The position numbers were made by a program, and so were the translations under genes. From positions 145,458-209,457 of the forward strand of contig JBBHKE010003562.1 in the NCBI GenBank assembly GCA_037447655.1: DNA of 64,000 bases, given 5' to 3'. Position 1 is the first letter of the stretch. Each line of letters begins with the position of its first letter. Positions 43,198-64,000 of this stretch are shown one piece after another. This DNA comes from Zygnema cylindricum. Its lineage: Eukaryota; Streptophyta; Zygnematophyceae; Zygnematales; Zygnemataceae. The notes under the pieces were generated by a model. The model was not told the DNA's origin and searched no databases. It saw nothing but the letters and a program-made list of their open reading frames with translations.

Positions 43198-43202
43198 AAA
43201 GG

Positions 43203-43789: not shown

Positions 43790-45064
43790 ATGGAAATACA
43801 CCAGATGGACATTAAGACTGCTTTTCTTAATGGTGAGTTAGAGGAAGAAATTTTTATGAGGCAACCCGAGGGGTTTGTGGAAGAAGGAGAAGAAAGCAAA
43901 GTCTGCAGGCTCATAAAGTCCTTATATGGACTGAAACAGGCTCCCCGACAGTGGAATAAGAAACTAGATGAGTGTCTCACCGATCTGGGATACATCCGGA
44001 TCAGCTCTGACCATTCTATCTATATGTGTGAAGATGGGAATGGTGTCATTTTTATTGCAATTTATGTGGATGATCTGCTCGTGTTAAGTAAGTCTTTCGA
44101 GAATATCAATAGGCTAAAGAGAGATCTTAGGGGCAGATTTGATATGAAGGATTTAGGGGAGGCAAAATATATTTTGGGGATCCAAATGGAGAGAGATAGA
44201 GGGAAAAAGATTATCAAACTTACTCAGAAAGAAGCAATAGGTAATATGCTTGAGAAATTCCAGATGGATAATGCTAACAGTTGTACCACTCCTATGGACT
44301 TGAAAAAAGTAAGTGATGGGAGTGTAGAAGGAGGAGTGATAATCTTAGACGATCAGATGAGTCCAGAGGAGAGAGAGTTCATGAAGTCTATCCCTTATAG
44401 ACAGGTCGTAGGGAGCTTAATCTATTTTATGAACTGTACCCAGCCGAACATAGCGGCAGCAGTTGGAGTACTCAGTAGGAGTCTTAATGATCCTAGGAAG
44501 AGAGACTGGGAGGCAGCCAAGAGAGTCATGAGATATCTGGTTGGAACCAGAGAATTATGGTTGGATTTGGGAGGGGAGCACAGTGATATCACCACTTGGA
44601 GTGACGCCAGTTATGGGGATGCACCTATGAGAAGATGCACTTCTGGATATGTTTTGTATGTGGGGGAAGGTGCTTGCTGTTGGAGCAGTAAGCAACAAAA
44701 GGTGGTTGCTCAGTCTACTATGGAGGCTGAGTATATGTCGTCTTGTTCTGCTGTAAAAGAACTAATGTGGGTGAAATCATTGTTACAAGAACTGGGATTT
44801 ATGAAGGAGGGAGTGCATGAAATTTTTTGCGATAACCAAGCTGCAATTGCAATTGCAGCCAATCCAAAACACCATTTCAAAGCAAAACATATGGACATAA
44901 GATTGAGCTTCGTAAGAGAAAAAGTTGAAAATAAAATTTTAAATCTTGTGTATAGGCTTGATGAAGAAATGGTGGCTGACATGATGACCAAACCTGTGCC
45001 CTCTCCTAAACTAAAATATTGTCGGGAAAAATGCGGGTTGAAAGAAAAATTAAAATTAGACTAG
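43790..45064 (+). CDS. RT and RNase H of A (424 intact codons)
   Basis: The longest clean pol segment in the window. RT: MDIKTAFLNGELEEEIFM, SLYGLKQAPRQWNKKLD, polymerase box YVDD at residues 92-95, RFDMKDLGEAKYILGIQ. RNase H: TTWSDASYGDAPMRRC (Asp at 272), STMEAEYMSSCSAVKELMWVKS and FCDNQAAIAIAANPKHHFK. The C-terminal MVADMMTKPVPSPKL leads to a TAG just before the purine tract AGGGGAG (45071-45077). The first Met is not a natural start; the segment is the tail of gag-pol after the frameshift near 43735. All catalytic residues I can check are present. Confidence 0.9.
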   Translation: MEIHQMDIKTAFLNGELEEEIFMRQPEGFVEEGEESKVCRLIKSLYGLKQAPRQWNKKLDECLTDLGYIRISSDHSIYMCEDGNGVIFIAIYVDDLLVLSKSFENINRLKRDLRGRFDMKDLGEAKYILGIQMERDRGKKIIKLTQKEAIGNMLEKFQMDNANSCTTPMDLKKVSDGSVEGGVIILDDQMSPEEREFMKSIPYRQVVGSLIYFMNCTQPNIAAAVGVLSRSLNDPRKRDWEAAKRVMRYLVGTRELWLDLGGEHSDITTWSDASYGDAPMRRCTSGYVLYVGEGACCWSSKQQKVVAQSTMEAEYMSSCSAVKELMWVKSLLQELGFMKEGVHEIFCDNQAAIAIAANPKHHFKAKHMDIRLSFVREKVENKILNLVYRLDEEMVADMMTKPVPSPKLKYCREKCGLKEKLKLD

Positions 45065-45077
45065 AAAATAAGGGGAG

Positions 45078-46115
45078 TGTTGAAATTTATAGATTTCTAG
45101 AGTATTTTCTAGGTTTAAATATGTTTTTATAAAAGGAAAGAAAAAGGACGGGCAGCCTGCCTCCACCTCCGCTCTCTAGCTCCCATACATGTTGTAGTCA
45201 CTGAAGGTAAGAGAGAGAGGTTGATCCATAACTGCATTAGTTCAACAGACAGCTATTTTTAGTGGGTTACTAAAAATATACTTGACGGACCAGAGATTTG
45301 ATCCCAGTACCTGCGGTTCGTCAAGTTAATCGGTAGCGGTCAGCTTTATCCTAATAGACTAGGACCAATGCTAAGTGCTATGGTATGTGATAAATATATA
45401 TTTAGTTTGCGTGAATAAAATTCATTTAACTAGAACTGTATATGGCGTACATAGATTCAGTTTTATAAAGTACATCGTACGACGCTAATTCGAAACGGAT
45501 ACCACGCATTTTATTTCGACATCAGAACAAATGTCGCGCAAGTATTTATTACGGCTAAGATTGCGTTTTGCATAAAATCCAACGGCGCACATCATCGCCG
45601 AAATCCCGGAGTGGTCACTTTGGCGTTTTGTGACGTGGCATGACCTGGAGCCACGTGGAGAGATGACATTCGGTCATAAGAATTCCGAGGAACGTACGGA
45701 CGAGTGAAAAGCGGACACTCGTCCACTTAATAGCCTTGTCGTACATAGGCCGTACAAAAGGTACATCGGCAGTAGTACTTTTGTGTACGATACAGTAATC
45801 TGATTGGTCCGTACTTCAGTAGATAGGAGTTATTAGAGAGAATCAGGACTTCGAAAATTTTGGTAGGTAGTCACCTCTCCCTTTGAGAGTTTGTACAAAT
45901 TGGCATTTTTACTGCCTCATAACTTATCGTTTAGTTGGTCGTTTTCAGTGATTATTTTTGCTACGGACTCAGGGGAGTTCAGGCTGCACAGGGGTGCAGT
46001 CAAATTATCAGTTTGCCTTCTTGGGCAGCAGTGGTTGTGGCTTAAAGTGGGTTAGTTAAATACTATCTAGAGGCTTCCTGTATTCTGTAGTCCAATGGAG
46101 GACACAGAAATTGCA
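45078..46115 (+). repeat. 3' LTR of A (1038 bp)
   Basis: Nearly identical to 38397-39421. It keeps GGACTC-AGGG-GAGTTC (one G-T pair) near 45965. It ends ATTGCA and is followed by another primer site rather than host DNA. Confidence 0.93.
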
Positions 46116-46455
46116 GGTTATGGGTCCACCCTCTAGGGTGCCCACCTTCAATGGATCTGGGTTCATCTATTGGGAAGCCATGATGATGGGAGCTTTGTGT
46201 GAAAAACGATACTGGGGTATCGTCAGTGGACAAGTGAAACGTCCACCTTTGGGAACTCCACCAGGATTTGGAGTAAGGTTTTCTGCAACAACGGATGCCT
46301 CAGCGGAGGAGGCAGATGATGGGGACAGCAGTGTGGCCAAAAAGGAGAAAGGGAAGGAGACACCCCTCACTCCTATTGCCACAGTATCGGGAGCGGCGAC
46401 CGTGAAGACCGTGGAGAACGATACTCAAATGTGGGAGGATGTAAACATGACCGCA
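46096..46455 (+). pseudogene. Second Gag start (A', tandem remnant)
   Basis: Primer site GGTTATGGGTCCACC (46116-46130, one mismatch) and Gag to WEDVNMTA, colinear with A and about 95 percent alike at protein level (CEKRYWGIVSGQVKRPPLGTPPGF). The LTR ATG at 46096 is out of frame by one base (an extra A in the LTR end), so the usable start is the ATG inside the primer site. It is cut near 46455 by D2 LTR sequence. Confidence 0.85.
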
Positions 46456-47090
46456 ATGAAAGAGTGCGCCATACGCACTTAGGATGTTTCGTACCACTTT
46501 ACCGACAAACATTTGGACTGTTGTGAATAATGTTGACTAAGCGTTGACAACATTTATTGTAAGAACGATATCTATAAATTTTTGTGAAACAAATATTTGA
46601 AGTTTAGCACATTAGTAAATAGTGTTACACTATCCATTTAGCGGCAAGTAGCAAATAAAGTTTTGGGAAGTACTAAGAGTACAATGAAGTACGGATTGAA
46701 TAATTTGTCAAAACATAGAGCAGTACTTTAGAATAGTCACCAGAATTAGTATAGATTAGTAGATACTCACTGTGAGTAAAGAGTTTAGGACTTAGTCAAA
46801 ATTATGCATCCACTCTTTGGAATATAGTTTCTAAAGGTAGTTTATAAGAAACTTGCAGATATTATATCATATGGTTGACTAAGCCAATTGGTCTGAAACT
46901 TTGTGAGTTGTCAGATATTTGCATATTGTATCATTGTGCTGAATTTGAGGCAAGTTCGCCCTTTTGGTCAGATACTGTGTCATCTAAAAGTTGGTTGTTT
47001 GAGAAGGTATTTGATAGTTTTTGTTGCTATCATGTCTACTACTACCACTACTGCCTATTGTCCTCTTGCAACAGTGGTTATAGAACAACA
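46456..47090 (+). repeat. D2 3' LTR, right piece
   Basis: Continues family D from the GTACGCACTCAGG-like block to the end GAACAACA, including the ATG-Ser-Thr-Thr-Thr-Thr frame (47032). Together with 38192-38396 it makes 840 bp of a roughly 1-kb LTR. About 170 bp are missing at the junction with A. Confidence 0.68.
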
Positions 47091-48290
47091 ACATCACCTA
47101 CAACACGCGTTTGCACACTCATACCCCAAGCATAGTAGATATTTTTCTCAGGTGTGGATTTCAAATTTTTGAAAATTGCCTTGTCCTAGCACATGTGGGC
47201 TGACGCTCTTGTGTCCATTATTCATCCAGTGTCTTTTATACCCTCCATAGCTGCCACCATAGCAAATAAATCCTCTTCTTCCTCGTCATAGAATGTCAGT
47301 GACTCATCGTGGTAAGATGAAGATGCCGAGAAAAATGCATTTCCACGAGATATAGATCTTGTGAAGCCTTGATTAAACTTGCTCTGTTGCGCTATCCAGG
47401 TCTGTACAATCCTGTTTCGTTAGCTGGTCTGCACAATCTTGTTTCGCTAGCTCTCGTAAGCTTAAGACAGAACTTATATCTATGACCTTTTTCATTACAA
47501 TAAAAAGAAGCATTGAAAGAATGTCTATTTCCTCTCTGATTAAATTGTTTAAACTGATTCTGGTTTTGATTAAACCGTTTAAACTTATTCTGGTTCTATT
47601 TAAACTGACATCTCTGCTGATTAAATAAAGCCTCTTTGTCAAAGTCTGTGTTAAATGGCTCTACCTGCTTTTCTCCACTAAGAATTTTAGAATCAGTCTC
47701 CTATCAAATTAATAGGCAATTGTAACGTCCAACTAGCTTTATCTTTTTGTTTCACCCTATCAGACGATGTTTTCATAGTAATAGGAAGACCCCTCATTAG
47801 CAATGCAGCCTGCTAAAACTGAGGGAAAGATCCACCTGCACAAGCATGAGAGTCTATTAGAATTTGAAACTTGTTTCCATATTCGGCCATTATGGCACCC
47901 GTGAATTTATTGTCCCAAATTTGGCCAGCCAAAAATTGTTCTTCTTGGACATTAGCCATTTCATAATCATCTTTAAGCGACTTCAGATATCAATCGTTTT
48001 TTTCATTTTAATCCGAGCCATAGCCAATTCCTTCGAGATACAAAATTTTAAAATAGATCGAGCTTGCTAATTTTTCTTCGACCAATATGCATTTGTCTCT
48101 ACCAGTGAACCATCCAAAAAATCTAAAAGGTTTACATTTTTGAAGTGTGTTTCAACCATATCCGCCCAATAAACATATTTTTCCCCCAAGAAAATAGGGA
48201 TTCTTGATGACAGGCCCATAACTTTTACTAACCTCAAGTGACGACGCGGGTCCTTGTGGAATTATGCTACACTTTATTATCTTTCTGTTG
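47091..48290 (-). pseudogene. Gag and protease start of Copia K (minus strand, broken)
   Basis: Read from high to low: a diverged primer site AGTTATGGGCCTGTC (48209-48223), a gag start VMGLSSRIPIFLGEKYVYWADM, then ETHFKNVNLLDFLDGSL, FGNKFQ-type middle region and LLMRGLPITM. An Asn/Arg/Gln-rich stretch precedes a zinc knuckle CFYCNEKGHRYKFC near 47460-47505. The protease site is MDTRASAHMC near 47200 (Gly to Arg). Stops are frequent. D2 cuts it at 47091. A Gypsy integrase lies upstream of about 48290. By Gag type it resembles Dp more than A or B. Confidence 0.72.
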
Positions 48291-48770
48291 TCACACTATT
48301 TTACTGAGACTTAAAGCTTTCCAAAAATCAACACGAACTCCGTACCCTGATCCGTAAAATCCTCCGCGGAAGCCCCATAACGCACGAGAACATGCTTTTT
48401 AAAAGCAACGGTGGTTATTTTAGCAGTCTTGTGGGGAAGAGCAACCACCTTACCCAGTTGCTAAAAGTTTCAATAATTATCATGATGTATTGTTTCCCCT
48501 TTCAAGAGAGAGGAAACGGTCCCGCAAGATCCACGGACCAACGATAAAACAATCCCCTGATAGGCAATGGCTTTAGAGTCACCTGCCGATTAGAAAAAGA
48601 AGTGCGAAACTAATCGTATGTGGCGCATTTGTAAAGAATGGCCGCCACATCCGTTTGCATTCCGGACCACCAATAGATTGACTTTACCAAGCTCAAAGTG
48701 CGCTTGGTCCCATAATGTCTGAGCTCGACATGTATCTGCTCAATCAAGGACAAGCGCTCGGTTGGCCAAG
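48290..48770 (-). pseudogene. Integrase of Gypsy Y (broken, 3'-truncated)
   Basis: The zinc-binding end reads HVELRHYGTKRTLSLVKSIYWW..KCATYD near 48610-48735, with the last Cys replaced by Tyr. The core follows in changing frames: FYRWSVDLAGPFPLS (first catalytic Asp) near 48530-48560, YIMIIIETFSNWV, then TDQGTEF (second Asp) near 48325. The Glu region is missing because the element ends near 48290. Confidence 0.82.
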
Positions 48771-50664
48771 GGACATACCTATGAAAGCTCTCCGCCAATA
48801 ATCGAACTAAAGATCCACCGAGCCACATATAATTTTTGGCTCGTTTCTTTACTCGGTCTTCCTTCTCGGTTGTAGTATAGGGCCAAAAGGTTTGAAATGA
48901 GAGGAAGAGGATTAAAGGGCCGTCGCGCCACGGATTTGTGGTCGGCCGAGAATGTGGAATGGGGAATAGAAGAGAGACACTAGGTGATATAGAAACTAGC
49001 CGACATGGCTGGTACCTCGTCCTCGTCGAAATCTTACCGGACCCCGTTTCGATAGTCCGTGGTAGTGGGTTCCGAGGTATCCCGTTGGCATTCAAGCTTA
49101 GCAAATCGGGCCGATGGATGATCTCAACGTCGTATTCATGTATAATTAAAGCCCATCGAGCAAGCTTCCCTAAGAGCTTATCATTCGGCATCAACCAATG
49201 AAAGGGTTGATGGTCAGTTAGAAGTGTGAATGGCTTGCCGTAAAGATAATGTCGGAAATGCACAGTACCCCATAACGGGGCGAGACATTCACCCTCGTAA
49301 CTACTGTAATTAGATTCAGCTCGGTTATTGCTCTGGCTGGCGTATGCCACTACGTATTTCTCTCCATTCAACCTTCTTTGTGTTAAAATGGCCGCAATGC
49401 ATGGCTTTCAAAAATCGGTTTGTAAGTCTAAGGGAAGGATGTGGTTAGGAGGTCGAAGAATGAGAGCGCAAAATCGGTTTGTAAGCAAAAGCGAAGCTTG
49501 TGGTTAAGAGGTCCAAGAATGGGAGCGCTAGAAAAGGCGGTTTTTAGTTTTTGAAATGCTTCCACTTGGGTGTGTCCCCAAACAAAAGGTACTTCCTTTT
49601 TCAGAAAGCCATCAAGAGGAGAAGCAATCGTATTAAAATTTAGTACAAATTGGCGATTATAATTGGCTAGTCCAAGAAAAGCCCTCGGACTAATGAGTTG
49701 GGTGGGGGGCGATATTTCGATGAGTGCCTCTACCTTAGCTTCCAAGGGAGTGATGCCCTCAGTGGAAATAAAATGGCCGAGATAGGGCACTCCTTCCGCA
49801 CAGAAAGTACTCTTGGTTAGGTGACACTTCAGCCCGACTTTTTTTAATTTGGTAGAAACCCACTCAATGTGGAGAGCGTGCTCCTCCATGGTGGCGAAAG
49901 TGATGATCAAGTTATCAATGTAGCACAAAGCGAATTTACATCCACCTAGCACCAAATCCATGACTTTCTGGAACACAACTGGTGCATTCTTTAAGACCGA
50001 AGGGCATGACTGCCGATTCCAACCAGCTATCACTACCCCAAAACGCAGTTATATGATTACATTTTTCCTCAATTTCAATTTCGTTAACCTCTTGCCGCAA
50101 GTCAAGGATGCTGAAGACCATCCCACCCCTTTCAAGGTAAAATATTTCCTCCGCTAGAGGCATAAGGTGGCGGTCGTAAACTGTCCGGGCATTTAGCTCT
50201 CGATAGTCTCCACACATTCTTCGCTCTGTATAATTTCCGTGATAATCTTTCTTCCTATGCATGACTGTGTGGGCGACAAAGGTGGAGTCGGACCGATAAA
50301 TTAGACCAACTTCTTCCAATTCTGCGCATCTTTTGTCTATCATCTCCCATTCCATTTTAGAGAGATGGTGTTTCGGATTAAAGATAGGTCGCTCTTCTTC
50401 AAGATTGATTGACATTTCGTAAGTGGAATGTCGTCCAAGGTCATTGATAAAGTAAGAAAACGCGTTTATATGACGGGTGACTGTGTCACTTAATAGTTCA
50501 TGTTCCGCCGTTGTGAGACTAAAACCAAACTTCCACTTGGGAGTCTCAAGACTCTTGATGGTGAAAGCTTCCATGGCCTGAGCAAACACAATTTGCACAT
50601 CGGCTATAAGGTAGTTGCCTAACTCGTATCTTACCAGTGTGTTCTGTAGGCAGTTTACCAACTG
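48771..50664 (-). pseudogene. RT and RNase H of Gypsy Y (broken)
   Basis: RT starts near 50660: KWKFGFSLTTAEHELL, PIFNPKHHLSKMEWEMIDKRCAELEE, CGDYRELNARTVYDRHLMPL, then FSILDLRQ with the first catalytic Asp. AVMPFGLK follows before a frameshift near 50000. The second frame has NAPVVFQKVMDLVLGG, then the polymerase box read YIDN (49911-49922) instead of YIDD, so one metal-binding Asp is lost. LGHFISTEGITPLEAKVEAL and FLGLANYNRQFV (thumb) follow. RNase H (LQTDFA, then after a shift near 49430 SNYSSYEGECLAPLWG, LLTDHQPFHWLM) ends near 49080. Confidence 0.87.
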
Positions 50665-50899
50665 GTGCCAGCTGCAAGTGGGATATGCAGCCGTCCTATG
50701 TGGAACCGGCGAGACAGAAGAAAAATGGGTGGACTAGACAGCGGTATAGGCTGGAATTTTCCATGACATGTGACTACGATTAAGGAAATCGTAGATTGTG
50801 AATTCCGAAGGAGACGGTGTGCGAGATGGAAAAAGAAAAAACTGAACTGGATTACCTCAAAGGCCCAGGGAAAGAATATGTTGTAATGATGGTGTGCGG

Positions 50900-52300
50900 T
50901 GACGACGGCGATGGTTCTGTGTGTAGCGACCAGCTGCCAGACCCAGATCTAAAACAAATGACAAGGACTAAGGGTCCATGACTTTACCCAGCACTGTGCA
51001 CATCTATCGTTTTGTAAGGCGGAGGGGCGCAGTAGTGCCTAGAATAAAATGTACAAGATGATCCCTTTTTGTGGCCGTAGGCTCATTTAACTCCCCCGTG
51101 ATATTTTTTCGGAGCATGCCTGACCTGTATGCAAGTATGCGTGTGAATTAGGGTAAGACACTAAGTTGTTGATCGACTACTTTAATGGAATAGTTAAGAG
51201 GTTAATCTTGTATGACGCATGCTGACACTTGGTGAAAATGAAGTAAAGCGGTCTTAATGTCTATGGTGGGAGGTCTTAAAAACAAATTTGCCTCACAAAG
51301 ACTACCAACATCGATTAGGTTTGTCCATTTGGAGGGAACCCGATGTGCCACAGACCCATGCTGAGCGACATCAGTGATTAGAGGAGGTCCAATTAGGTGT
51401 TCAATACGCTTATGATCTGCCAAAACTATGGGCAGTGGGTCATTATAAGCGGCCACGTTCTCCAAAATGAATAGGACATGTCGGTCCATGGTTTGGAGAA
51501 AATGAAGGATCTTGAGAAGCTGAAAAAACAATTTCGTACAGGGATCCGCCAAACCAAAGCCTTTGCCGGCCCGAGACATGCTTTGACACTCCCACCCCCA
51601 AAAACAAGGTCTATCGGCCCGATATCTTATAAGTGGTGATTACTAAAAATGCGTATGTCTTGTGGAAGGGTCGTGTGCATATGTACGAAAGCACACTTTG
51701 GAAACAACTGTGGATATTGGGAATGTAAGAGATTGCAGTGATGCAACTGCGCCTTTCTAGCCATAACATCTATTTCCACTGCATAATAGTGACAAATGAA
51801 AACACCATTCTGTAAACACAACAGTAGGGAAGTACCGATCCAAGGAAATAGGTCTAAAATAACGACCCCGTCCGTATGAGGACTCAACTGTACAGGCATC
51901 CTATTAATAAAGAGGAACCCGGAAAGGTCGGTTGCTATTGGAGGTATAGGAGGAATAGGTGTTAATGGTATAGGTAATGTGGACTTATAGATATGGTCAA
52001 ATGTATGAGAATCGACAAGGAAACCCGGCTCCTCAAAGTGCTCGGGTAAGAAAAAATTATCCTGCAAGTTCTCTTCGGCCGATAGGGAAAGGAAAATTTC
52101 CTCCCCAATAAAGTTCTTTAAAAATGCGGAAAGAGTCGTAGCCGAATAAGCCATAGGGGTCAAAGGTCGGCACGCTGAAATGCGCTCCGGAAAGTGTGTC
52201 GGTCGATAAAAGAATGTTTGGTCGTGCATGTCCACGCCACCACAGACTCGGAATATAACGTCTTAGCCCACCAAACACTCATAATCGTTGCATATTGTGA
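50900..52300 (-). pseudogene. Cytosine-5 DNA methyltransferase domain in Gypsy Y
   Basis: Predicted to transfer methyl groups from S-adenosylmethionine to cytosine in DNA; it lies between protease and RT in the same pol region. An N-terminal extension (residues such as FLPEHFEEPGFLVD) precedes motif I, VVILDLFPWIGT at 51831-51866, where the usual middle Gly is Trp. Next is the Glu motif YYAVEIDVMAR near 51760-51790. The catalytic Cys lies in WECQSMSRAGKG (Glu-Cys-Gln at 51584-51592), reached after a frameshift in a G run near 51595. Motif VI is ILENV (51454-51468). QHGSVAHRV (51337-51363) resembles the DNMT3 segment VSAAHRARYFW. The C-terminal half has ELNEPTATKRDHLVHFILGTTAP and GKVMDP before it fades near 50985. 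Five or more stops and shifts. The order and spacing match the DNMT3/DRM-like group better than bacterial restriction methylases. Confidence 0.82.
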
Positions 52301-52329
52301 CAAACACCCTAACGGAAATTTCAACGGAC

Positions 52330-52707
52330 TCATTGTCGATTCTCGTCTGAAACCGAAAGATCAGCGGGTTCTTTGTGATTCTGAGGACCCGCTCTATGGT
52401 CCCAGCTGAGGTAACAAGGCGGTATTGTAAGCTTGTCTACTGTCAAACCAAGCTTGAGAGCAAATCCGGATCTGAGGATCATGGGTTTGGCCCCGGTGTC
52501 CATGAGAGGAAGAGAGGGGTGAAATCCGTTCACTGAAAATGATCCCCGTGAGTTATCAAAGAAACTTATATAGGGATCGAGATTACGACGCTCTTCCGTA
52601 GTAGCAGGCTGAGCTGTTGATTGACTACGATTCAACTGTAGATCCCTCAAAGCGGCTTTTGCTGCGACCTCATCAACGAGGGGAAGGGCTTTTGGTACGT
52701 CCTCCAT
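52330..52707 (-). CDS. Aspartic protease region of Gypsy Y
   Basis: 125 uninterrupted codons. After a Gln/Arg-rich start and SFFDNSRGSFSVNGFHPSLPLMDTGAKPMILRS, the active site is MDTGA (Asp near residue 69), as in retroviral-type proteases, followed by GLTVDKLT. The PR would cut the polyprotein inside the particle. Two in-frame changes separate it from Gag (upstream) and the methyltransferase (downstream). The Met is the first in the open stretch and need not be a start. Confidence 0.75.
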   Translation of the reverse strand: MEDVPKALPLVDEVAAKAALRDLQLNRSQSTAQPATTEERRNLDPYISFFDNSRGSFSVNGFHPSLPLMDTGAKPMILRSGFALKLGLTVDKLTIPPCYLSWDHRAGPQNHKEPADLSVSDENRQ

Positions 52708-52709
52708 AA

Positions 52710-53942
52710 TTGCTGAAAGAATATTTTATCGCTCTTTCACCCGATGAGCCTCATGAATGGTGCCATCCAATATGGTTAGCGCTTCCGCTGTTGTGGTGGA
52801 AGTCATTTCTGGTAGAGGAGGAAGAGACTCCTATGCAAATGAAAGTGGGACTCAAATTTTTTGTAATTTTCCCACTTGGTTATGGTCTACGCAACCCTTC
52901 TCATATATAGCCACCCGTTGTTGGACCGTGGAATCCCGAAGGGTTCGCCCAGCCAACGACGACATATGTACAAAGGTCTTAGCCATACCAGTAAATTGAG
53001 GTTTCATTTCCGCCATGAAAGCTGTGAATTGCTCTTTCATCACGGTTGCCATTGTGGCTTGAAACTCGGCCTTCTCTCTCTCTCTACTAGAGAACTTACG
53101 GGGGGCTTCCTCCTTCTCGGTCTCCTTAGGCGGAGTGACCGGTTTCGCAGAAGGGGTCGGAATACCCCCGTTCATAATCTAATTTTGATAAGTGAAATTT
53201 GGGTCCTAGATGTAGCACCGGTGGACATAATGTCCTTTTTGGTGGCAATGAGAGAAAGTGGCCGCCTTGTCAAGACACATGCGCTCATCGTGCCCGGTTT
53301 TACCACATTGGAAACACATTCGGTTTCCGAACTAACGGGTGGGGTTCCCATGGCTGGCGTCTTTTAGGGCCTATTGGAAGGCCAGGGGTTTTTGGGTGGA
53401 AGAGGAGATTGGTTAACCGGTTCCCTATGAGGAGGTTTGGACCACTCACGAGCTTCCCATCACGATGTCTGCATCTCATACTCTACCATATATTGAGCCG
53501 CTTGCTCAAATGTGAATGTAATTCTATACATCTTACTGAGGTGGTTTTGAATAAACCTCTTGGATGGACCTAGAAAATGTCCCACAAATTTCTCGATAGC
53601 CTACACATCGGACATAAGGTCCAGTAATGCCTCTCGCAGAGTTTACATACAAGCACGTAAGGTGAGAGCAATTTCACCCGACCTATGCTTGAGGTTCATC
53701 AACTCCTTGATCGGATCCAGATTTTGCATCCGTTACTCTTATTGAAGTATGTCAAACATGACTAGAGAGGGTTACGAAAAAGAATGGTTCCCCCCGCTCT
53801 AGCTTCGACCGCCACTCGGGCAGCCAGCGCATACTGACGAGGAACCTCAAGGATAGCTGGATACAAATCGTCCCCGTTGACATCTAATACCGCAAGTTTT
53901 GTGGCCTAGTATCGAATATTCACCTGGCCGAGGACTTCTAGT
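52710..53942 (-). pseudogene. Gag of Gypsy Y, C-terminal part with zinc knuckles (broken)
   Basis: From 53942: VLGQVNIRY, stop, TKLAVLDVNGDDLYPAILEVPRQYALAARVAVEARAGGT; then DPIKELMNLKHRSGEIALTLRACM..ALLDLMSDV, KFVGHFLGPSKRFIQNHLSKMYRITFTFEQAAQYMVEYE. Two zinc knuckles near 53205-53315 (CFQCGKTGHDERMC, then a damaged FSHCHQKGHYVHRC with the first Cys changed to Phe). A charged coiled segment KETEKEEAPRKFSSRER and a Met-rich stretch TMATVMKEQFTAFMAEMK come last. Several stops. Confidence 0.78.
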
Positions 53943-55232
53943 TATTGTGATTTGAAATATTTAGTACTCAGTAAATAGGTCAATGAGAGAGGGATTAGTA
54001 CTTACAATTATTTTTGGTATACACACTTTAGTACTGACCCCTAATAGTGTTAAAGTAGTATAAGGACAAAAGAGTCTACGGTACTTCTACAGTGACACGC
54101 GTCAGCAGATGAGGATTTTGCAGGTATTTCGAAATGGCGCCGACACTCACATACACATGTCTAACATCGAACGAGCGAATTCACAAAATCGAACAGATGA
54201 AGTTTGGACTGGACATCCGGTAAATTGACTGTACGGATTCAGTATGGAAAGTGGATTCGAATCGTGTCGACGTACAAGATTCGCGCGGGACCACAAGTGA
54301 CAAAGCCCGTCGTACGCACTCACGTGCTTTCTACCGCACAACAACAGTCCACTGGACTTATGTGAACCCTGTTGACTAAGCATCAATTTGAAATGGAACC
54401 ACGGCTAATGATTTGGACGCGTGTCGTCCAGCGCAAAGATCTACTTTACATCGTACGTTGATCCGTGAATTCGGAATTGACTATTACGGACGCTTACAGT
54501 AATTTGGACGGATTCGCCAATTGCTGACTAAGCAATTAGCACAATGAATGTACGACCACTATGTGTAAATATCTCAAACAACATTAATTTGTATGTAGTG
54601 AATTAGTTTTTAGTGTTACATTATTGAAATTGGATAAAAGTTACAATTAGGATTTTAGACCTACTTCCGGTATAGTACACGTACCGTTGACGTACGGTGA
54701 CTTTATTAAGCCACAGTACTTAGTTACACGTGTTGTACCTTGATTATTGCAAGGCTCAGTAGATAGCTATGTGAGTATAAAATGTAGGACTTAGTTTATT
54801 TTCAGCATCAGCTGAGTTTATCAAAGTAATGGCAGACTATTTTTCTGCATCTTTGACCTGTGAGTGTGATCACTCTGAGTGATATCTTGATATGAAACTT
54901 TGTGTGGATGTTCTATGATATATAAAATATATGTTTGTGTAATTTCATTGTGTTCTGTTGTTTTTGTAGAATTCTGTGAGAGATTTACTTTGTTAGTTTG
55001 ATAAGTTGTCAACTGTTTTTGGGAAACTCTGGAGCTTATATCTTTTGGATTCATTTGTGGATCAGGCTTTAACTTTTGGAGGTTATAGTTTCAAGTACAT
55101 TATGCATATTGGTGCAGTTTGAGGTGCTTTTGTATATTGTGGAGTAATCTGTGTTGTCTGAAACACAGCTGTTTTGGGATATACTGTGGGTGTTTACAGT
55201 GAGTAATCCATGGCTGAAATAGGTTATGGACA
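53943..55232 (+). repeat. 5' LTR of Dp (1290 bp)
   Basis: Starts TATTGTGATTTG (TG mutated to TA), ends GGACA. It shares short blocks with family D (GTAGTGAATTAGTTTTTAG, CGGTGACTTTATTAAG-like sites) and with A-F near the end. The gag ATG at 55210 lies in the last 23 bases, as in A-C. Confidence 0.88.
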
Positions 55233-56675
55233 AAAGGTTATGGGCCCACCCCCATGGCTACCCATATTTGATGGATCTAACTATCACTACTGGAATTGTG
55301 TGCTTGAGAGCTACTTCGAGATGATGGAGCTAATGGATGTGGTGGATGGAACCTTGGACGAAACATCAAGTGGATGGGAGAAGAAGAACCGTGAGTGTTT
55401 AAGGGTTATCAAAAAATCCTTGACAAAGAAACTGCTAATGACATACCTAAAGTTGAAAAGTGCAGCTGAACTATGGAAATGTCTAAAATGTAGGTATTTA
55501 AAGACTTCTTTGTATCACTGATTTAGTAGCGCCATTAAACTTTTTGGATATAAGTATGTAGGCGGAAGCATGGTGGAGTATTGTACTGGTATAAAAAGAT
55601 TATATTTGCATAAAATGCTTTGGCAGGAGGAAGCTTTACAGATGCACATCAAGTTGTCTTATTAATGAGAGGCTTACCGAGTGACTATAGAGATGCATCA
55701 AATATAATAACTAAAATTGATAAAAGGGATTGGAACTTAAGCCAAGCAATCCGTATAGTGTTAGATGAAGAAGATTGGAAAAAGTTTTTTGAAATGAATA
55801 TGAAGGTCTCTAAGTCTCAGTTTCAGAAAATTAAAAGTAATAGTGAGTCCAAAAACAAACTTAAGAATTGTTTTTACTGTAATGATTTTGGACATACATT
55901 CAAGCATTGTCCATCATATAAAAGTGCATGTGTTACAGGAATTTTTAGAGATGGATGGGACAGCAACAGAGTTTTACCCTCAACAAGGAGGGAACCAAGT
56001 GCTTTCATGAGTGAGGGACAAGCTTCAACAGATGACAAAAGGTCTACACCTTCAGTCGACAAATATGTTTACTTGCCAAGTGTTTATGTTTTTCAGAATA
56101 TGGTGAAAGAGGAAGGAAAGGGAAGATTTGCTGCCACGGAAAATAGAGTGGAGGAAGAAGTAAGAGAAAAGGTTTTGTCTACTGTCAATGTTTCCGATGA
56201 AAGATTGGTGAGTGACACAAACTTACAAAACGAAGGGGTCACTGAAATGGGAGAAGTTGAAAGAAGTGAATGGCATCCAAAATTGAAAGTGGAAGAAACT
56301 GAAAATAGTGTGGTCACCGAAGATAGTGTGGAGAAATAAGAGAGTGAAAAAGATTTGGTAGTTTTGACTCTCTCTTTTTATAGATTGGTGTGTGATAATT
56401 ATTTACAAGGAGATGAGAATCTTGAAGAAAGAGGAGTAAAAAGAAGTGAAGTACACTTAAAAATGAATGCAAAATATTCCTTAGATATAGAACATTCTGA
56501 ACTGAAAACAAAACTGAAAGAAAGACCGAGAAAAGATGATAAGAAAATTAAAGTAAGGAAGGAGAATGATGAGAGAGAAAATAGTGGATTGGCACAAGAT
56601 GGGAAAACACATATTGTAAATAGAAAGACTAATAGTGCCATTGAAGTGCAGAGGAATCAAAAAGAAAAACTTTAA
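55210..56675 (+). pseudogene. Gag-like protein of Dp
   Basis: First stretch 55210-55521: MAEIGYGQKVMGPPPWLPIF, then DGSNYHYWNCVLESYF, the Trp-rich N-terminal Gag box (DUF4219/UBN2 type), with GWEKKNRECLRVIKKSL. A stop and a frame change follow near 55520-55620. Then 55620-56675 is one frame with a single TAA (56337): DAHQVVLLMRGLPSDYRDASNIITKI, the zinc knuckle CFYCNDFGHTFKHC near 55869-55910, and a long Glu/Lys/Ser-rich tail without recognisable domains. The tail stays open for about 240 codons, which would be unusual for neutral decay. Confidence 0.8.
55236..55250 (+). other. Primer-binding site of Dp (perfect)
   Basis: GGTTATGGGCCCACC preceded by a 3-bp spacer AAA after the LTR end. It is inside gag (KVMGPP). 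Confidence 0.83.
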
Positions 56676-57204
56676 GATAATAACTCTACAGGGGAGTGGT
56701 AAAACTACAGAAAAATACCAAAAATTAGTGAGAAGGATCACACTCTCTAGAGGTAATGGGGAGGCGAATTATGGAAAAAGCACAAAGTCTATGAGGAGTG
56801 CGGAATGTAGTAAGAAAACAAGGAGAGGGTGCCGATTACGGAAGACCAACTGGAGAAACCAGCTCCACAAGCGACCACACAAAAGACCAAAAAAGCTTTT
56901 TTTGAGGTGGAAACATCGACACCTCCAAAGTGAAATATCATTATTGAAACGGGAGACAAATTGGAGTGGCTGAATGTCTGACAAAATCTTAGAGTTGCAA
57001 TAATATGTATGCTTAAAACTAACACATCCAAAAATAAGGAGGAGTGTTGTTTTTGTAAAGTTTTGGATGTTTAGTAGTGAAGGTTGTGAGAGGGAATTTC
57101 CGAACTTAGAATATTTTTCTTAGTCCATGCTTTAGTATGTACCTGAATTACAGTAGACAGTTTCGTAAACAGAGTGAAGTACTGAGTCTAAAGTTTTAGG
57201 GGAG
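56676..57204 (+). other. Non-coding 3' internal region of Dp
   Basis: No enzyme domain. At about 57046-57150 it holds a short piece resembling the start of a D-family LTR (GTGTTGTTTTTGTAAAG, GGTTGTGAGAGGGAATTT). The D-type internal end GAGTCTAAAGTTTTAGGGGAG follows at 57184-57204, serving as polypurine tract. Confidence 0.6.
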
Positions 57205-59480
57205 CGTTGTGACTTGAAAACATAGTTCAAAAGTAGGTGACCGTACGCCCATACAATATGCCTATTGTACGCAAAACATACAATATGCCCTTAAGACCCA
57301 TATTGTATTAGCCGCAAAATGAAATAAAATAGGGCCAGGGTTGAGTTGCACATCGATCGATAGAGAATTAAACGACATGTCTAAATTTTGAAAAAAAATC
57401 GGACAAAAACAAATATTTTTGTGAGTTTTGAGGGACTTTTTATTTAAACCGTCAGATTTGGACGATCGGACGGTCACTGAACAAAGTAGGCAATTTTAAA
57501 AAGATCACATGAAAATCCCATAACACAACTTACGAAAGGACAATCTGTCATATTAGCGTCTTCAATTTTGAGGGCCACACTAAATAAAGCCTTAAATTGA
57601 CCAACCAGGCAGTATGGGACGATAAAAAAAAAAAAATACCACACTGCCAAAAAAATTACCAAAACCTACAGACCAACCCCGTTCGCATTCACACGGTCAA
57701 AACGCGGTTGTCAGACGAATGTGTGTGAACGGGATTTTTTACGACTTGATTTTATTGACTTTTTATTCACATGCGTCCGCGGTTAATAAAACTAATTTAT
57801 TCTACATTTTAACTTAAAAAGGTACATTTATGTACGGTCTAACACTGACCGTACACCACTCTATTTAAGAGACAACGTACTTTCATTTTTTACAGTACTT
57901 GAAAAATAGCCCAAATTAGAGTAGTGAAAATTTTAGAGTAAACTATGCTATTTGAGAATTTTCCCGGTTTTTTTTTTCCCGGTTTTTTTTCCCACGGAAT
58001 GTCATCCTACACTGTCAGTTCGCTAAAAAATTTTGTCCGGCGGCGTGCGCTGTACATTCATCTTACGTCAGATTCGGACGTTCGTATAGGAGTGTGCACG
58101 ACGCACACACATACAGTATGCCTACGTTGCGAGAGTTTTGTGCAAAGTTTTGTGCACCTACCAAAGGCCTACAATAAAATGGCCTACTTTTGAACTATGC
58201 TTGAAAACTTTAATACTCAGTAAATAGGCCAATGAGAGAGGGATTAGTACTTATAATTATTTTTGGTATACACACTTTAGTACTGACCCCTAATAGTGTT
58301 AAAGTAGTTAAGGAAAAACGAGTGTACGGTACTTCTACAGTGACACGCGTCAGCAGATGAGGATTTTGCTGGTATTTCGGAATGTCGCCGACACTCACAT
58401 ACACATGTCTAACATCGAACGAGCGAATTCACAGAATCGAGCAGATGAAGTTTGGACTGGACATCCGGTAAATTGACTACACGGATTCAGTATGAAACGT
58501 AGATTCGAATCGTGTCGACAAACCCAATTCGCGCGGGACCACAAGTGACAAAGCCCGTCGTACGCACTCAGGTGCTTCGTACCGCACAACAACAGTCAGC
58601 TGAACTTATGTGAACCATGCTGACTAAGCATCAATTTGAAATGGAACCACAGCTAATGATTTGGACGCGTGTCGTCCATCGCGAAGATCTACTTTACATC
58701 GTACGACGATCCGTGAATTCGGAATTGACTATTACGGACGCTTACAGTAATTTGGACTGATTTGCCAATTGCTGACTAAGCAATCGGCACAATGTATGTA
58801 CGGCCACTATCTGTAAATATATGAAACAACATTAATTTGTATGTAGTGAATTAGTTTTTAGTGTTAGATTATTGAAATTGGATAAAAGTTACAATTAGGA
58901 TTTTAGACCTACTTCCGGTACAGTACACGTACCGTTGACGTACGGTGACTTTATTAAGCTACAGTACTTAGTTACACGTGTTGTAACTTGATCATTGCAA
59001 GGCTCAGTAGATAGCTATGTGAGTATAAAATGTAGGACTTAGTTTATTTTCAGCATCAGCTGAGTTTATCAAAGTAATGGCAGACTATATTTCTGCATCT
59101 TTGACCTGTGAGTGTGATCACTCTACGTGATATCTTGATATGAAACTTTGTGTGGATGTTCTATGATATATAAAATATATGTTTGTGCAGTTTCATTTTG
59201 TTGTGTTGTTTTTGTAGAATTCTATGAGAGATTTACTTTGTTAGTTTGATAAGTTGTCAGCTGTTTTTGGGAAACTCTGGAGCTCATATCCATTGGATTC
59301 ATTTGTGGATCAGGCTGTAACTTTGGGAGGTTATAGTGTCAAGTACATACTACATTTTGGTGTAGGTTGAGGTGCTTTTGTATATTGTGGAGCAATCCGT
59401 ATTGTCTGAAACAAAGTTGTTTTGGGGTAGTCTGTTGGTATTTTCCGTGAGTAATCCATGGCTGAAATAGGCTATGGACA
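57205..59480 (+). repeat. 3' LTR of Dp, split by a hAT-like MITE
   Basis: Starts CGTTGTGACTTG (TG mutated to CG), interrupted at 57220/58208, ends GGACA at 59480 followed by Gypsy gag. Over the shared 1.29 kb it is very close to the 5' LTR. Confidence 0.88.
57221..58199. mobile_element. hAT-like MITE, 979 bp
   Basis: Perfect 17-bp terminal inverted repeats (CATAGTTCAAAAGTAGG and its complement) and a perfect 8-bp target duplication CTTGAAAA (57213-57220, 58200-58207). An 8-bp duplication with CA-type ends is the hAT signature. No transposase frame; the inside has AATATGCCTATTGTACGC-type repeats near the left end and poly-pyrimidine runs near 57965-57990. Non-autonomous. It postdates Dp. Confidence 0.9.
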
Positions 59481-59850
59481 ACACTGTTAACCTCGCAAAG
59501 AGAGCAACGTACTCTGTCATCGCAAGAATGTCCTCGTACTTGCGAGTATAGAGAGTGAGGGCCAAACCACGGAGGTATCGTGCGAAAAGTGAAAATGCAA
59601 CTCGGAGGTCAAACCTATCCTTATATCTGAACGCTAGATCCCTCATTTCCGTGTCGTATAACATCCAAAAACCGGCAAGGCATCGGAATTCTTACAAACA
59701 CCTTAAATACTCTGGTGAGTATTAAAAGTGAACCAGACTTGTTTGGAGCAAGTTATATTTTTGCAGAGTACTCAAGAACGGGATCCCCCTTGGTTCCAAA
59801 TAATTGTACCTATAACTACCACTAAACACCCAAACAATAAAAATCCTTCT
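59481..59850 (-). pseudogene. Gag of Gypsy Y, N-terminal part
   Basis: Minus strand: LQKYNLLQTSLVHF, stop, YSPEYLRCL, then MLYDTEMRDLAFRYKDRFDLRVAFSLFARYLRGLALTLY and DILAMTEYVALFARLTV up to the Dp insertion. It continues on the far side at 53942. Upstream of about 59850 the similarity is lost; no LTR or primer site is evident before the B-type LTR at 59896. Confidence 0.72.
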
Positions 59851-59895: not shown

Positions 59896-62071
59896 TGCAA
59901 TTCTGAGACCTCCATAGGTCCTCAAAAGGGGTAGCTCACACGAATCCCTTAGGAAAACCTTAATACCTTTGTGTTTCAGCAAGAATAACTGCAACCATGG
60001 CAGACAAATACCTTGACCACCTTAACCCTTGTGAAGGTAAGACTCTCCTGAGTCGATAACAAAAAGAATCTCTGAATTTTCTCCACTGAGCAGTAAGTAA
60101 TGAGTGGTGATATATGACCTTTTCTACAAGAGCTCTCTCGGAGAGAGGCGGATACTTACTATTTTTTCTAAGTCCTATCTCTCTCTCTAAACCCCCAATA
60201 CTAACGTACAACACTAATCAAAGTATTGTATCGTACAGAAAAGGTACGGGTGTCGGTGCACTTTCTGTACGTCCATCGTTCAACGTGGCTGTCATGCCGC
60301 ATCGTGCAGGTTGCTTGCGCGCAAGATATCATGCCCGCTCACGCGATATTCGGCCTCCGCGCATGATATAATGCACGCACGCCCGTTATTTTGCATGCAA
60401 TCGCAGTTTTTTGCATGCACGCGCAGTATTTTGCATGCAAACGTGATTTCCTGCGCGCAAGCTTGGTTTGCTTCGGGGTATATCGCCCATTCATTTGTTT
60501 GTGACGTGTACGCAATTAGCGTGCACGTTTCATTAAATAGTACTAATTTTGTGGGATATGTTTCATTTTGTGCGCAGGTATGTAATTTTTTAAGTATGGA
60601 CGCGAAGTATCGTTTTGGCGAGGCATCTCGATTTCCGAAAATATTTCGTGCGATATGTTTTGTTTCGTTCACATGCACGCAATTTTGGGAGTATCGACGC
60701 GAAGTATCGTTTGGCGCCAAATCGCGATTCTCGGTAGTTTCGGCGACGCTTTGATACCTTGTATTTATTTAAGTCGCGAACCCATGTAGGTTCACGCACA
60801 TGTAGTTAGGGAGGGTTTTTACCCTCGGACGATGGATTTTGTCACGCGTACGGCAGACATTGTTGGTCGCTTATTGGCCAACATCTAAATTAGTTTCATG
60901 CATGTAAAGTAGGCTAGACGTAGGCTAGTTTTGCTTAAGCCTAGCTTAGCTCCTATTTAGGCTAATTCTCTGACTTAGAGAATTTTAGCTTTTGGACAAG
61001 AATTTTCTCTTGGCGGCTGAGCTTCTTTCTTGCTCTCTCTCTCTCTCTCACCGATTGCTCACGTTTCTCTCTTTCTTTTGCTAGCTAGCATTAGAGGCTA
61101 GATAGGTTAAGGACATTTACCTTGTATTTCGGCACACGCTCTTTAATCCACACGGCTCAAAGCCAATTCCGGAAGGTTTCCCTCCAACTTGTGTTATTTT
61201 TGGGAAAGGTGGAGTGAAGTTCGTGTGGAGAGGCATCTAGATCCGGCTGCGACTTCTACGAGCAGCGGAACGGTTTGGAGTGTTTATGTTTGTTTTGTTC
61301 GCATTTCGGTTGGGAGTGGGGAAGTGGATTTTGACCGGTTTTGAGGTTTTTTCCTTGTTTTGGTTGAAATTATTTATTATTTTTGCTGCCTCTTCGAGAT
61401 AACTCTTGTAGAGAATACGATAAAGACACGACAGCCTAGTGGCTACCTCATGGCTTAGTAACACTTCACTCTAGGGGAGTATTCTTCCCCTTCTCTCTTT
61501 CACCTTTATTCCTTCTCATGGTGTACATTTTTTTTGTCTTTTCATATTTATAATCGTTCGTATATATGTTTGTGAGCATGACTTTGCTGTTGTGATGAAT
61601 GTTTGCTTGCTTGCCTCTCATGCATGACATGGCCAAAATGTCGACACATGCCATATCCGGATTTGTTCCTGTATTCTCCGGAGTAGCCCCAATCCAATGT
61701 TATCGCGCCACGTGTTACTTGACGTGGTGATGACAATAAAACGCCAAAAACACCTATTCCGCGATCTCGACGCATATCGTGGTCGTCTGATCAAAACCGG
61801 CTTTAATTGTAGCCGTTGAAAATAGATGCGCGGTATTTGATTCGCGGTCAAAACATATGCGCGATGTCCGTTTCGTACGGTACATAAAACCGTACTATAC
61901 TTGAACTATTTCTATATACTAGGAATTGATTGGTCTAGTTAACTGAATTCATCAACGTGTTAACATTTATATATTTGTCAAACCGTATAGGACTTAGCAC
62001 TGGTCTTAGACTAATAGGATAAAGCTACCGGCTACTGGCCACTTTGACGGGCGGCAAGTACCAAGATCAAT
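59896..62071 (-). repeat. B-type LTR fragment, minus strand, split by G2
   Basis: Two pieces, 59896-60290 and 61634-62071, are colinear with the B2 LTRs: a GACCTCCAT end with the gag ATG near 59911, a GTACGGGTGTCGGTGCAC block, and the tRNA-like block near 62000-62068. The minus-strand 3' end is at 59896 (TGCAATTC on plus). The 5' end is lost near 62071. Confidence 0.78.
60291..61629 (+). repeat. Complete solo LTR G2 (1339 bp)
   Basis: Perfect 8-bp inverted ends TGTCATGC..GCATGACA and a 4-bp target duplication TGGC (60287-60290, 61630-61633). Neighbouring B LTRs have an uninterrupted ACATGG/ACTTGGC at this site. The first 200 bp carry recurring GCATGCACGCGC-type units (60360-60470). No coding domain, so its internal region and superfamily are unknown. 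The second copy is G1. Confidence 0.85.
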
Positions 62072-62785
62072 GTCATGCATGGTTATATTTATTGCCTATG
62101 GAGGATTTTAGATTCTATTACTACTTCATAGGATGTGGTTTCGGATCAATTTTGGAGTTTGTCAATATTGAGCCGGCAAGGCACCAAAAGCCATTTTTGA
62201 GAGACGATTATGATCACAAAGATTATTGTTTTGTTCTGTAATCGAACGCCCTATTAAATTCTATATAGCATAGCTAATAGAACTTTATTTCACTTAATTT
62301 AGATAACTAGGCTACAAGATATCTGAGGTCAAAGTATTGTTTTGGTGCAGATTTTAGAAACTTTGACGTTCAATATCTTTTCAGCGGCTGGGTTAAACAT
62401 GCTGTATATTTTACTGAAATATATAACTTTTTATTACTTTTCTAATGAATGTTTATTTGGATTGATTGGATTGTAATTATTAGAGATATGTTAGAAACTT
62501 TGACGTTCAATACCTTTTCAACGGCTCGGCTACAGAAGCTTTATTGTATATTGATAGATAGAACTTTTTAATACCTTTGTAATTAATATTTGTTTTTGAT
62601 TGATCGAATGGATATTATTAGAGATATGGCAGTTTTTGTAAACTGCATTATATAGGTTAATTATTGACTTTTTGAAGTAATGATTGCTTTTGCCGATTGG
62701 AAATTAGTACAGGCTGTCCAACCGACTTTTCACAAGTCATAAGTTCTGAAATTTTCGGGAATTAAACATAGAATGAGTCCCGTAG
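62072..62785. other. AT-rich region with a 137-bp tandem duplication
   Basis: No recognised gene. Two units, 62357-62493 and 62494-about 62630, begin GAAACTTTGACGTTCAATA and end near AGAGATATG; by eye about three quarters of positions match. The left edge begins TGTCATGCATGG, echoing the G-family start, but no further G match follows. A 65-codon open frame at 62044-62241 has no match I know. Confidence 0.5.
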
Positions 62786-64000
62786 TGTCAGTTTTTGAAG
62801 CTAAGTATTAGTTCAAGACCGGAGGGGAAAAATATTGTCGGTTGCAAATGGGTCTACAAAATTAAGAGGAAGGCGGACGGGACCGTGGAGCGTTACAAAG
62901 CCCGTTTAGTCGCGAAGGGATATTCCCAAAAGGAGGGGATTGACTACAATGAAACTTTTGCACCGGTTGTGAAATTTTCAAGCTTAAGGAGTTTGGTCGC
63001 GATTGCCGCATTGGAGGGCATGAAGATGCATCAAATGGACGTGAAGACGGCGTTCCTCAATGGAGAGCTTGACGAGGAAATTTATATGGAGCAACCGGAA
63101 GGCATGGTGAAGAAGGGAGAGGAGGACCTTGTGTGCAAGTTAAAGAAGCCTCTCTATGGTCTTAAACAAGGACCACGGTGTTGGAATCACCGTATCGACG
63201 GTGAAATGAAAAAGGAAGGCTTTGAGAGATTTGAGACGGATAGAGCGGTGTATAAGCGTGGAGTAGGAAAATCTCTCACAATTGTGTCTATCTATGTGGA
63301 TGATGTGAACATCTTTGGTTATCTCGATGATGAAATTTTGAAAGTTAAAAGGTTTCTCAAAAGTAAGTTTGAAATGAGTGATTTAGGAGAAACTAATTAT
63401 TTGTTGGGAATTAAAGTGGATATTGATAAAGAGAAAGGCGAGGTGACCATGCACCAAGAGAAGTACGCGAGAGAAGTCCTCAAGCGATTTAATATGGAGA
63501 ATTGCAAGCCGGTGAGCACACCAATGGACACGGGGCTGAAGCTCACGAAAAATATGTGTCCAACGAACGAGGACGAAAGGGAGCAAATGAAGGAAGTACC
63601 GTATCGAGAAGCGGTCGGGAGCTTGATGTATTTGATGGTAGCAACGAGACCGGATTTGGCTGCGGCGGTTGGGAGTGTTTCCCAATTCATGGAGAATCCG
63701 GGAATTATACATTGGCAAGCCGTGAAAAGAATTTTGCGTTACCTCAAAGGAACGGTGAATTTCGGTTTAAAATTCAAGAGAGGAGAATCCGTAGAATTCA
63801 CCGGATATGTCGACTCAGATTGGGGAGGCGACGAAGACACACGGCGAAGCACGACCGGATATGTTTTTACATGCGGAGGCGCAGCAATAAGTTGGAGCTC
63901 CCGAAGACAAAGGACGGTTGCCCTATCGAGCACGGAAGCCGAATATATGGCAGCAACACACGCTACGAAGGAAGCCATATGGTTAAGGGCGTTCTTTAAA
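62786..64000 (+). CDS. RT and RNase H of Copia element Z, open to the window edge
   Basis: An uninterrupted frame of 405 codons leaving the window. Copia similarity starts abruptly near 62816 (RPEGKNIVGCKWVYKIKRKA). Then DYNETFAPVVKFSSLRSL, MDVKTAFLNGELDEEIYMEQPEG, the YVDD box at 63293-63304, and KFEMSDLGETNYLLGIK. Next are PYREAVGSLMYLMVATRPDLA, YVDSDWGGDEDTRRSTTGY and LSSTEAEYMAATHATKEAIW. All catalytic residues I can check are intact. It is a different lineage from A-D and has higher GC. Integrase, protease and gag are missing upstream, so this copy is 5'-truncated or rearranged; the true start cannot be given. Confidence 0.85.

Follow-up and report, generated by a model that had tools for sequence, protein, structure and literature searches.

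Does a retrotransposon of the alga Zygnema cylindricum carry a cytosine DNA methyltransferase (DNMT) of its own, and what might the enzyme do for the element? The question arises from a 64,000-nucleotide stretch of contig JBBHKE010003562.1 (hereafter the window), in which a sequence-only reading had noticed methyltransferase motifs between the protease (PR) and the reverse transcriptase (RT) of a Ty3/Gypsy element, Y. We find that this domain is a C5 methyltransferase, nearest to DNMT3, and that it is part of the element, which is itself decayed. Coordinates of Y are window positions on the minus strand, and its parts were compared by tblastn with the open reading frame (ORF) of L023, an open relative in the same genome.

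The methyltransferase domain of Y

The motifs stand on the minus strand in the order first described, namely motif I (DLFPWIGT), VEID, a Cys-Gln motif (GWECQSMSRAGKG), ILENV and AHRV, but they are split over two frames rather than held in one (Table 1); a stop codon interrupts the N part, and the frame shifts at motif IV. The sequence of human DNMT3A, the same as that of PDB 5yx2_A, was aligned to 52300-50600 of the minus strand by a frameshift-tolerant procedure that chose the join blindly. The alignment scored 114, compared to a mean of 34 (standard deviation, 3.6; maximum, 49) for 300 dinucleotide shuffles. Among 148 slices of the window aligned to DNMT3A, the two that bear the domain scored 114 and 107 and the next best 45. 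Chance motif matches are ruled out by these controls. The read-through of Y, with one X for the stop and another for the frameshift, matches Pfam PF00145 at 5.4e-8 (33.1 bits; cut-off, 22), which upholds the C5 family assignment made from the letters, and it matches DNMT3A in PDB at 6.3e-9. Left unjoined, the C part is weak (Pfam E value of 0.14; best PDB match at 0.45, with C5 methyltransferases in 6/6 matches), and the N part has no methyltransferase match in Pfam or PDB. Motifs IX-X of Y are covered by the match of the C part to L023, down to 50923. The blind join in the alignment, together with the sister copies, removes the doubt about joining the pieces of Y.

Related copies in the genome

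A search of the assembly (352.8 Mb, 2,689 contigs) with PF00145 yielded 123 scored matches from 782 candidates, all above the cut-off, and 10 kb was sampled around each of the best 20 of the 123, i.e., the best-scoring sixth. An element DNMT was found in 19 of these 20 loci. The exception, L015, is a host exon with best PDB matches at 102 bits, including 4fsx, versus 51 bits for animal DNMT1; we take 4fsx to be the maize chromomethylase ZMET2, and L015 is an exon of a plant-type chromomethylase. Among the 19 DNMT loci, 18 (all but L018) have a protease match upstream, 15 (all but L009, L011, L025, and L026) have an RT farther downstream on that strand, and 11 have a PHD match.

The intact relatives that the sequence-only reading thought worth seeking elsewhere in the genome are represented by L023, a single open frame of 2,395 codons encoding Gag, PR, DNMT, RT, ribonuclease H (RNase H), integrase (IN), and a PHD finger, in that order. 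Pfam detects the DNMT (PF00145, 2e-11), RT, RNase H, H2C2, rve, and the PHD finger (1.5e-9); the zinc knuckle falls below the Pfam cut-off, and the protease was assigned by motif and homology. The direct long terminal repeats (LTRs) of L023, 931 bp in length and 100% identical, show recent activity. This copy occupies positions 85514-95911 of contig C1344, and its LTRs end in TG...TA. TGG, with which a primer-binding site usually begins, does not stand directly behind the 5' LTR. No repeats of at least 60 bp were found within the 10 kb around L014 and L027, and Y, having lost its ends, has no flanking LTRs.

The copies fall into subfamilies. Subfamily A consists of L012, L013, L023, L024, and Y. 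In subfamily B (L014 and its kin), a PR frame, with a protease match below the cut-off, is followed by an in-frame UAG, after which L014 has a 1,520-codon frame with DNMT, RT, RNase H, IN, and a PHD match below the cut-off. Subfamily C (L011, L019, and L026) resembles B. The Pol order PR-RT-RNase H-IN, with the integrase last, is seen in the L023 and L014 ORFs and, by tblastn, in Y, where the integrase is truncated. The combination of a DNMT with a C-terminal PHD finger in the same element is apparently new.

Since related copies have the DNMT between PR and RT, and L023 has it within a single ORF, the domain belongs to the element and, as had been supposed for Y, has no boundaries of its own. 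Independent insertion of a methyltransferase is ruled out by this conserved position. That the methyltransferase came to lie in Y by chance, as a host pseudogene or as an insertion unrelated to the element, is accordingly a reading to which we give hardly any weight: the domain of Y is indeed unreadable without joins, but the methyltransferase takes the same position in the sampled loci, is open in L023, and is fused to a protease in other sources, e.g., in protein P0056 (see below).

For the ratio of nonsynonymous to synonymous substitution (dN/dS), 15 of the 19 copies were used, and 28 of the 42 within-family pairs had a usable dS. The ratio was 0.08 to 0.75 (median, 0.25) for the DNMT and 0.07 to 0.28 for RT (8 of 10 pairs). 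Purifying selection is thus shown for the DNMT in related copies. Measured against other copies, the two DNMTs in each of the pairs L016/L017 and L027/L028 give the same dN and dS; the members of a pair either arose by recent copying or lie on duplicated or allelic contigs.

Fold and family placement

An AlphaFold model of the element DNMT (predicted local distance difference test score, 93; 59 in an earlier model from 10 alignment rows) has a complete DNMT3 fold, with motifs I to X unpermuted. Compared to solved C5 methyltransferases, profile A1 scored 68 bits with DNMT3A, 33 with HaeIII, 31 with HhaI, 28 with DRM, and 28 with DNMT2. Plant methyltransferases of the DRM2 type are likewise DNMT3-related but differ in being permuted and in scoring 28 rather than 68 bits; the unpermuted motif order rules out a DRM identity.

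In a tree, a branch with a support of 100/100 separated 34 element rows and DNMT3A from HhaI, DNMT1, DNMT2, and 9 rows of bacteria or viral contigs. DNMT3A, the only DNMT3 included, has a long branch and may stand either inside or beside the element rows. A bacterial or phage origin was considered and rejected: 12 viral-contig and 15 prokaryote loci match partly or weakly, and the 9 of these 27 placed in the tree lie across the 100/100 branch.

Public collections and known systems

With the broken domain of Y as the sole query, nothing was found in viral contigs or among 5.8 billion proteins (890 and 1491 candidates). A profile of the sister copies retrieved 82 proteins, 59 of them at an E value of ≤1e-17 and from genome and metagenome sources, mostly JGI; of the rest, one matched at 1.3e-9 and 22 at 1.7e-7 or weaker, the latter resembling generic methylases. 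P0056 has protease matches (E value of 2e-4, below the cut-off) as well as a DNMT match, and a protease-tail motif precedes the DNMT in six proteins (P0056, P0002, P0005, P0017, P0057, and P0058). A contig of a cyanobacterial metagenome-assembled genome in GTDB, L049 (CADCWO010000201.1), encodes gag-PR-DNMT, a UAG, and RT-RNase H-IN-PHD. Because its ends overlap exactly, over 127 bases, L049 is a circle or a collapsed repeat; as a eukaryotic-type retrotransposon, it is probably a contaminant of the assembled genome. The spread of DNMT elements within one genome and across public collections is apparently new.

A DNMT-bearing Gypsy element as such is of a kind already known from KnitGypsy-Dnmt3 of Klebsormidium nitens, described by de Mendoza et al. 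in 2018 (PMC5890265). The sequence-only reading referred to captures in charophyte and dinoflagellate retrotransposons from that work; both are there, the dinoflagellate ones being DIRS or LINE elements and not Gypsy. According to PMC5890265, KnitGypsy-Dnmt3 is, like the elements reported here, an LTR Gypsy element with an unpermuted, intronless DNMT3-related domain in the Pol ORF, under purifying selection, in a streptophyte alga. Compared by description, the two differ in that the main text of PMC5890265 mentions neither a PHD finger nor a gag-pol stop codon, and that it describes the key amino acids as conserved, whereas the subfamily of Y has ECQ. KnitGypsy-Dnmt3 copies are described there as fewer than those in Symbiodinium, compared to 449 UAG sites here (see below), and its repeats as DIRS-like, compared to plain direct LTRs in the one copy that we examined. 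SymbioDIRS-Dnmt3 and SymbioLINE-Dnmt of dinoflagellates share a retrotransposon-borne DNMT, of DNMT3 type in the DIRS element, but have a tyrosine-recombinase DIRS or a LINE backbone in place of an LTR element with a DDE integrase (PMC5890265); no recombinase domain is listed in the L023 and L014 ORFs, which have an rve integrase instead. Animal DNMT3A/3B are 20-26% identical to the element DNMT over fold matches. The element differs from them in the PHD finger, which here stands behind the integrase, and in the ECQ of subfamily A, and no PWWP or ADD domain was found with the element DNMT. PMC6338049 discusses such elements and states that they are absent from land plants, and PMC12344493, citing PMC5890265, mentions DNMT3 in LTR elements, called Copia, and in DIRS elements. 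Literature searches, mostly at the title and abstract level, found no report of a DNMT-bearing Gypsy element besides KnitGypsy-Dnmt3.

A UAG between protease and methyltransferase

Of the 13 PR/DNMT boundaries of subfamilies B and C found in the sample, 12 have a UAG, followed in L017 by a second stop, and L025 has a UAA; neither L018 nor L019 yielded the boundary site. No UAG is present in the open copies of subfamily A (L023, L024, and L013). In L049, a UAG followed by CAA UCA is placed after the DNMT instead. The sequence UAG CAA resembles the leaky stop of tobacco mosaic virus. Genome-wide, the pattern TAGCAATTCCCNAT has 449 sites versus 3 for the reversed pattern, and with the stop codon left free, 308 versus 9; among about 100 free-codon matches listed, 11 had another codon (2 UAA and 0 UGA), as counted by eye. 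The in-frame UAG between protease and DNMT in subfamilies B and C is apparently new.

We propose a scheme in which Gag-PR would be made first and readthrough of the UAG would add DNMT-RT-RNase H-IN. The protease would then free the DNMT into the virus-like particle, where, or else in the nucleus, it could methylate CG sites of the element's own new DNA, so that this DNA would resemble host chromatin; the PHD finger may direct integration to a histone mark. Judged from sequence, self-methylation of element cDNA is plausible. The domain order, the predicted DNMT3 fold, the purifying selection, and, in two subfamilies, the UAG between Gag-PR and DNMT-Pol are the demonstrated part. Taken jointly, Y as a dead member of a DNMT-bearing Ty3/Gypsy clade, its domain order, and the scheme of readthrough and self-methylation strike us as equally apt to be right or wrong.

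Several observations weigh against this account. We infer readthrough of the UAG from its context only. KnitGypsy-Dnmt3 gave no methylation in yeast, a result that its authors call inconclusive (PMC5890265). L023, the sole copy inspected, has no 4-5-bp target-site duplication. The dN/dS pairs have sequences in common and are not independent, stops occur in some of the copies, and ratios reach 0.75; moreover, subfamily A has a single usable pair (L023-L012, 0.10) and subfamily C two. The element DNMTs form one group excluding DNMT3A in only 28% of bootstrap trees. The remaining points concern the motif IV of Y's own subfamily and CpG composition: ECQ takes the place of PCQ in each of the five A copies that were read (L023, L024, L012, L013, and Y); the observed/expected (o/e) CpG ratio of five A copies is 0.83-0.93, i.e., not depleted relative to the window (0.73); and two Copia elements without a DNMT, at 0.59 and 0.84, span the range of the DNMT-bearing copies, so that composition settles nothing.

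A conserved ECQ in motif IV

Subfamilies B and C have WPCQ and thus keep the Pro-Cys of motif IV. FAGWECQG has 74 exact sites in the genome, and its reversed control has 0; Glu is encoded by GAA at 52 sites and by GAG at 22, in 20 different 23-mers. Among 60 related proteins (P0001-P0060), motif IV reads WPC in 55, WEC in 3, and WQC in 1, and 1 is without the stretch; P0002, which has WEC, groups with subfamily A (support, 99/99). The catalytic Cys, the Glu of ENV, and the Arg of motif VIII are all retained. A conserved ECQ subfamily that includes Y is apparently new. Since the Pro-Cys of motif IV is replaced in subfamily A, we file Y as DNMT3-related, by sequence and predicted fold, rather than as a proven DNMT3-type enzyme. 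The suggestion that this copy could methylate its own DNA, or any other, is not supported: Y is broken, its subfamily has Glu for the Pro of the catalytic loop, and KnitGypsy-Dnmt3 gave no methylation in the yeast test that its authors call inconclusive.

One possible reading, on which we would not wager, is that the subfamily A protein is no longer a normal methyltransferase and instead binds DNA or acts as a partner subunit, in the way that DNMT3L assists DNMT3A; the PCQ enzymes of B and C might be what it pairs with. The ECQ of five A copies and 74 genomic sites and the lack of CpG depletion in A copies agree with this, as does the minority of WEC among related proteins, and the use of both Glu codons in 20 23-mers suggests that the Glu is held by selection. 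The 74 sites, however, were found by a pattern that contains the Glu itself, the predicted fold is complete, and the retained Cys, Glu, and Arg would be superfluous for a mere scaffold.

The CpG o/e ratio is 0.63-0.72 in five B and C copies and 0.78 in L049. Set beside the ratios of the A copies, these values would be in keeping with PCQ enzymes that are active and ECQ enzymes that are not, which is only a hint, because the Copia values overlap and base composition differs. The lower ratios of the five B and C copies measured would also suit a DNMT that serves silencing or the host, by methylating genomic element copies or lowering the transposition rate, and self-restraint is one option raised in the Discussion of PMC5890265. 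We think this improbable, as the host chromomethylase could account for CpG loss and L023, to judge by its identical LTRs, was active recently. Of the functions considered, we continue to prefer self-methylation of new element DNA.

Layout, decay, and surroundings of Y

Y encodes gag with zinc knuckles, protease, DNMT, RT, RNase H, and a partial integrase (Table 1). The sequence-only reading had taken 48290-59850 as one element; Y accounts for 59679-59494 and 53941-48335, and a plus-strand insertion of about 5.5 kb lies between, flanked by Y gag residues 239 and 242 (L023 numbering), with L023 residues 242-300 mapping to 53941-53765. The repeats of the inserted element (53952-55233 and 58201-59481) are 93% identical over 1282 bp (Kimura two-parameter distance, 0.069), and as they extend into the gag start, the inserted element, instead of having a simple two-LTR structure, may be a truncated or tandem copy. 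Y is cut off at 48335 (L023 residue 2105), so that the end of the integrase core, the PHD finger, and the 3' LTR are absent. By eye, 48240-48060 of the minus strand, just past the cut, reads as a Copia gag start (VMGLSSRIPIFLGEKYVYW), and another insertion or a rearrangement therefore seems to have removed the 3' end. DNA identity between Y and L023 is 65-68% where alignable. With its stops, the frameshift at the catalytic motif, the gag insertion, and the truncated integrase, Y is an old, dead copy.

Table 1. Parts of Y and the element inserted into it, in window positions
Feature	Position	Strand	Basis
Y gag fragment (L023 polyprotein residues 178-239)	59494..59679	-	tblastn of L023 ORF, 69% identity; upstream of inserted element
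Copia-gag element inserted later, splitting the gag of Y	53952..59481	+	Self-BLAST, repeat comparison, Retrotran_gag_2 1.4e-6
Y gag C part, CCHC zinc knuckles, several frames	53209..53941	-	tblastn, L023 residues 242-444 onward; knuckle by eye
Y aspartic protease (MDTGA ~52503) and C-terminal part, approximate limits	52183..52707	-	Asp_protease_2 E 0.0058, below cut-off; tblastn, L023 residues 448-743 and 749-1043
Y DNMT N part, motif I and VEID to DLVFGG; stop at 51629	51555..51872	-	tblastn of L023 DNMT, 58% identity; DNMT3A alignment
Y DNMT C part, ECQ (motif IV), ILENV, AHRV, motifs IX-X; 4 internal stops	50923..51603	-	tblastn of L023 DNMT, 59% identity
Y reverse transcriptase, two frames	49467..50541	-	Pfam RVT_1 1.3e-11; 67-70% identity to L023
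Y RNase H	49063..49467	-	Pfam RT_RNaseH 3.4e-23; 82% identity to L023
Y integrase H2C2 and part of core	48335..48762	-	Integrase_H2C2 5.7e-11; tblastn

Elsewhere in the window, 1-46000 and 59896-64000 form a dense nest of related Copia elements. What is apparently a young Copia copy, its long open frames at 39402-45064, lies between the segments 38397-39769 and 45078-46460, which are 95% identical. At 60372-60712 there are short repeats, both tandem and interspersed, with much TGCATGCACGC, and 60524-61629 matches 36574-37662 (82% over 1.1 kb). In the Zygnema cf. cylindricum SAG 698-1a_XF genome, Copia elements are reported to make up 29.8% and Gypsy elements 5.9% (PMC11096116). The Copia-rich window resembles that genome and, with the plant-type chromomethylase exon L015, makes the charophyte source favored in the sequence-only reading likely.

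Implications

Cytosine methylation usually silences transposons, and elements that preserve a methyltransferase are therefore a paradox. Tentatively, and with the balance tilting against it, we suggest that this lineage may keep an ECQ DNMT under selection beside PCQ sister lineages and may vary the dose of the enzyme by moving a readthrough UAG. The UAG precedes the DNMT in B and C, follows it in L049, and is lacking from the open copies of A; these differences could reflect such variation, a doubtful but conceivable reading. If it is true, ECQ proteins would act either as partners in the manner of DNMT3L or as methyltransferases whose chemistry is altered. With several subfamilies in one genome, young copies, and relatives in public collections, the PCQ/ECQ difference and the position of the UAG make the question testable.

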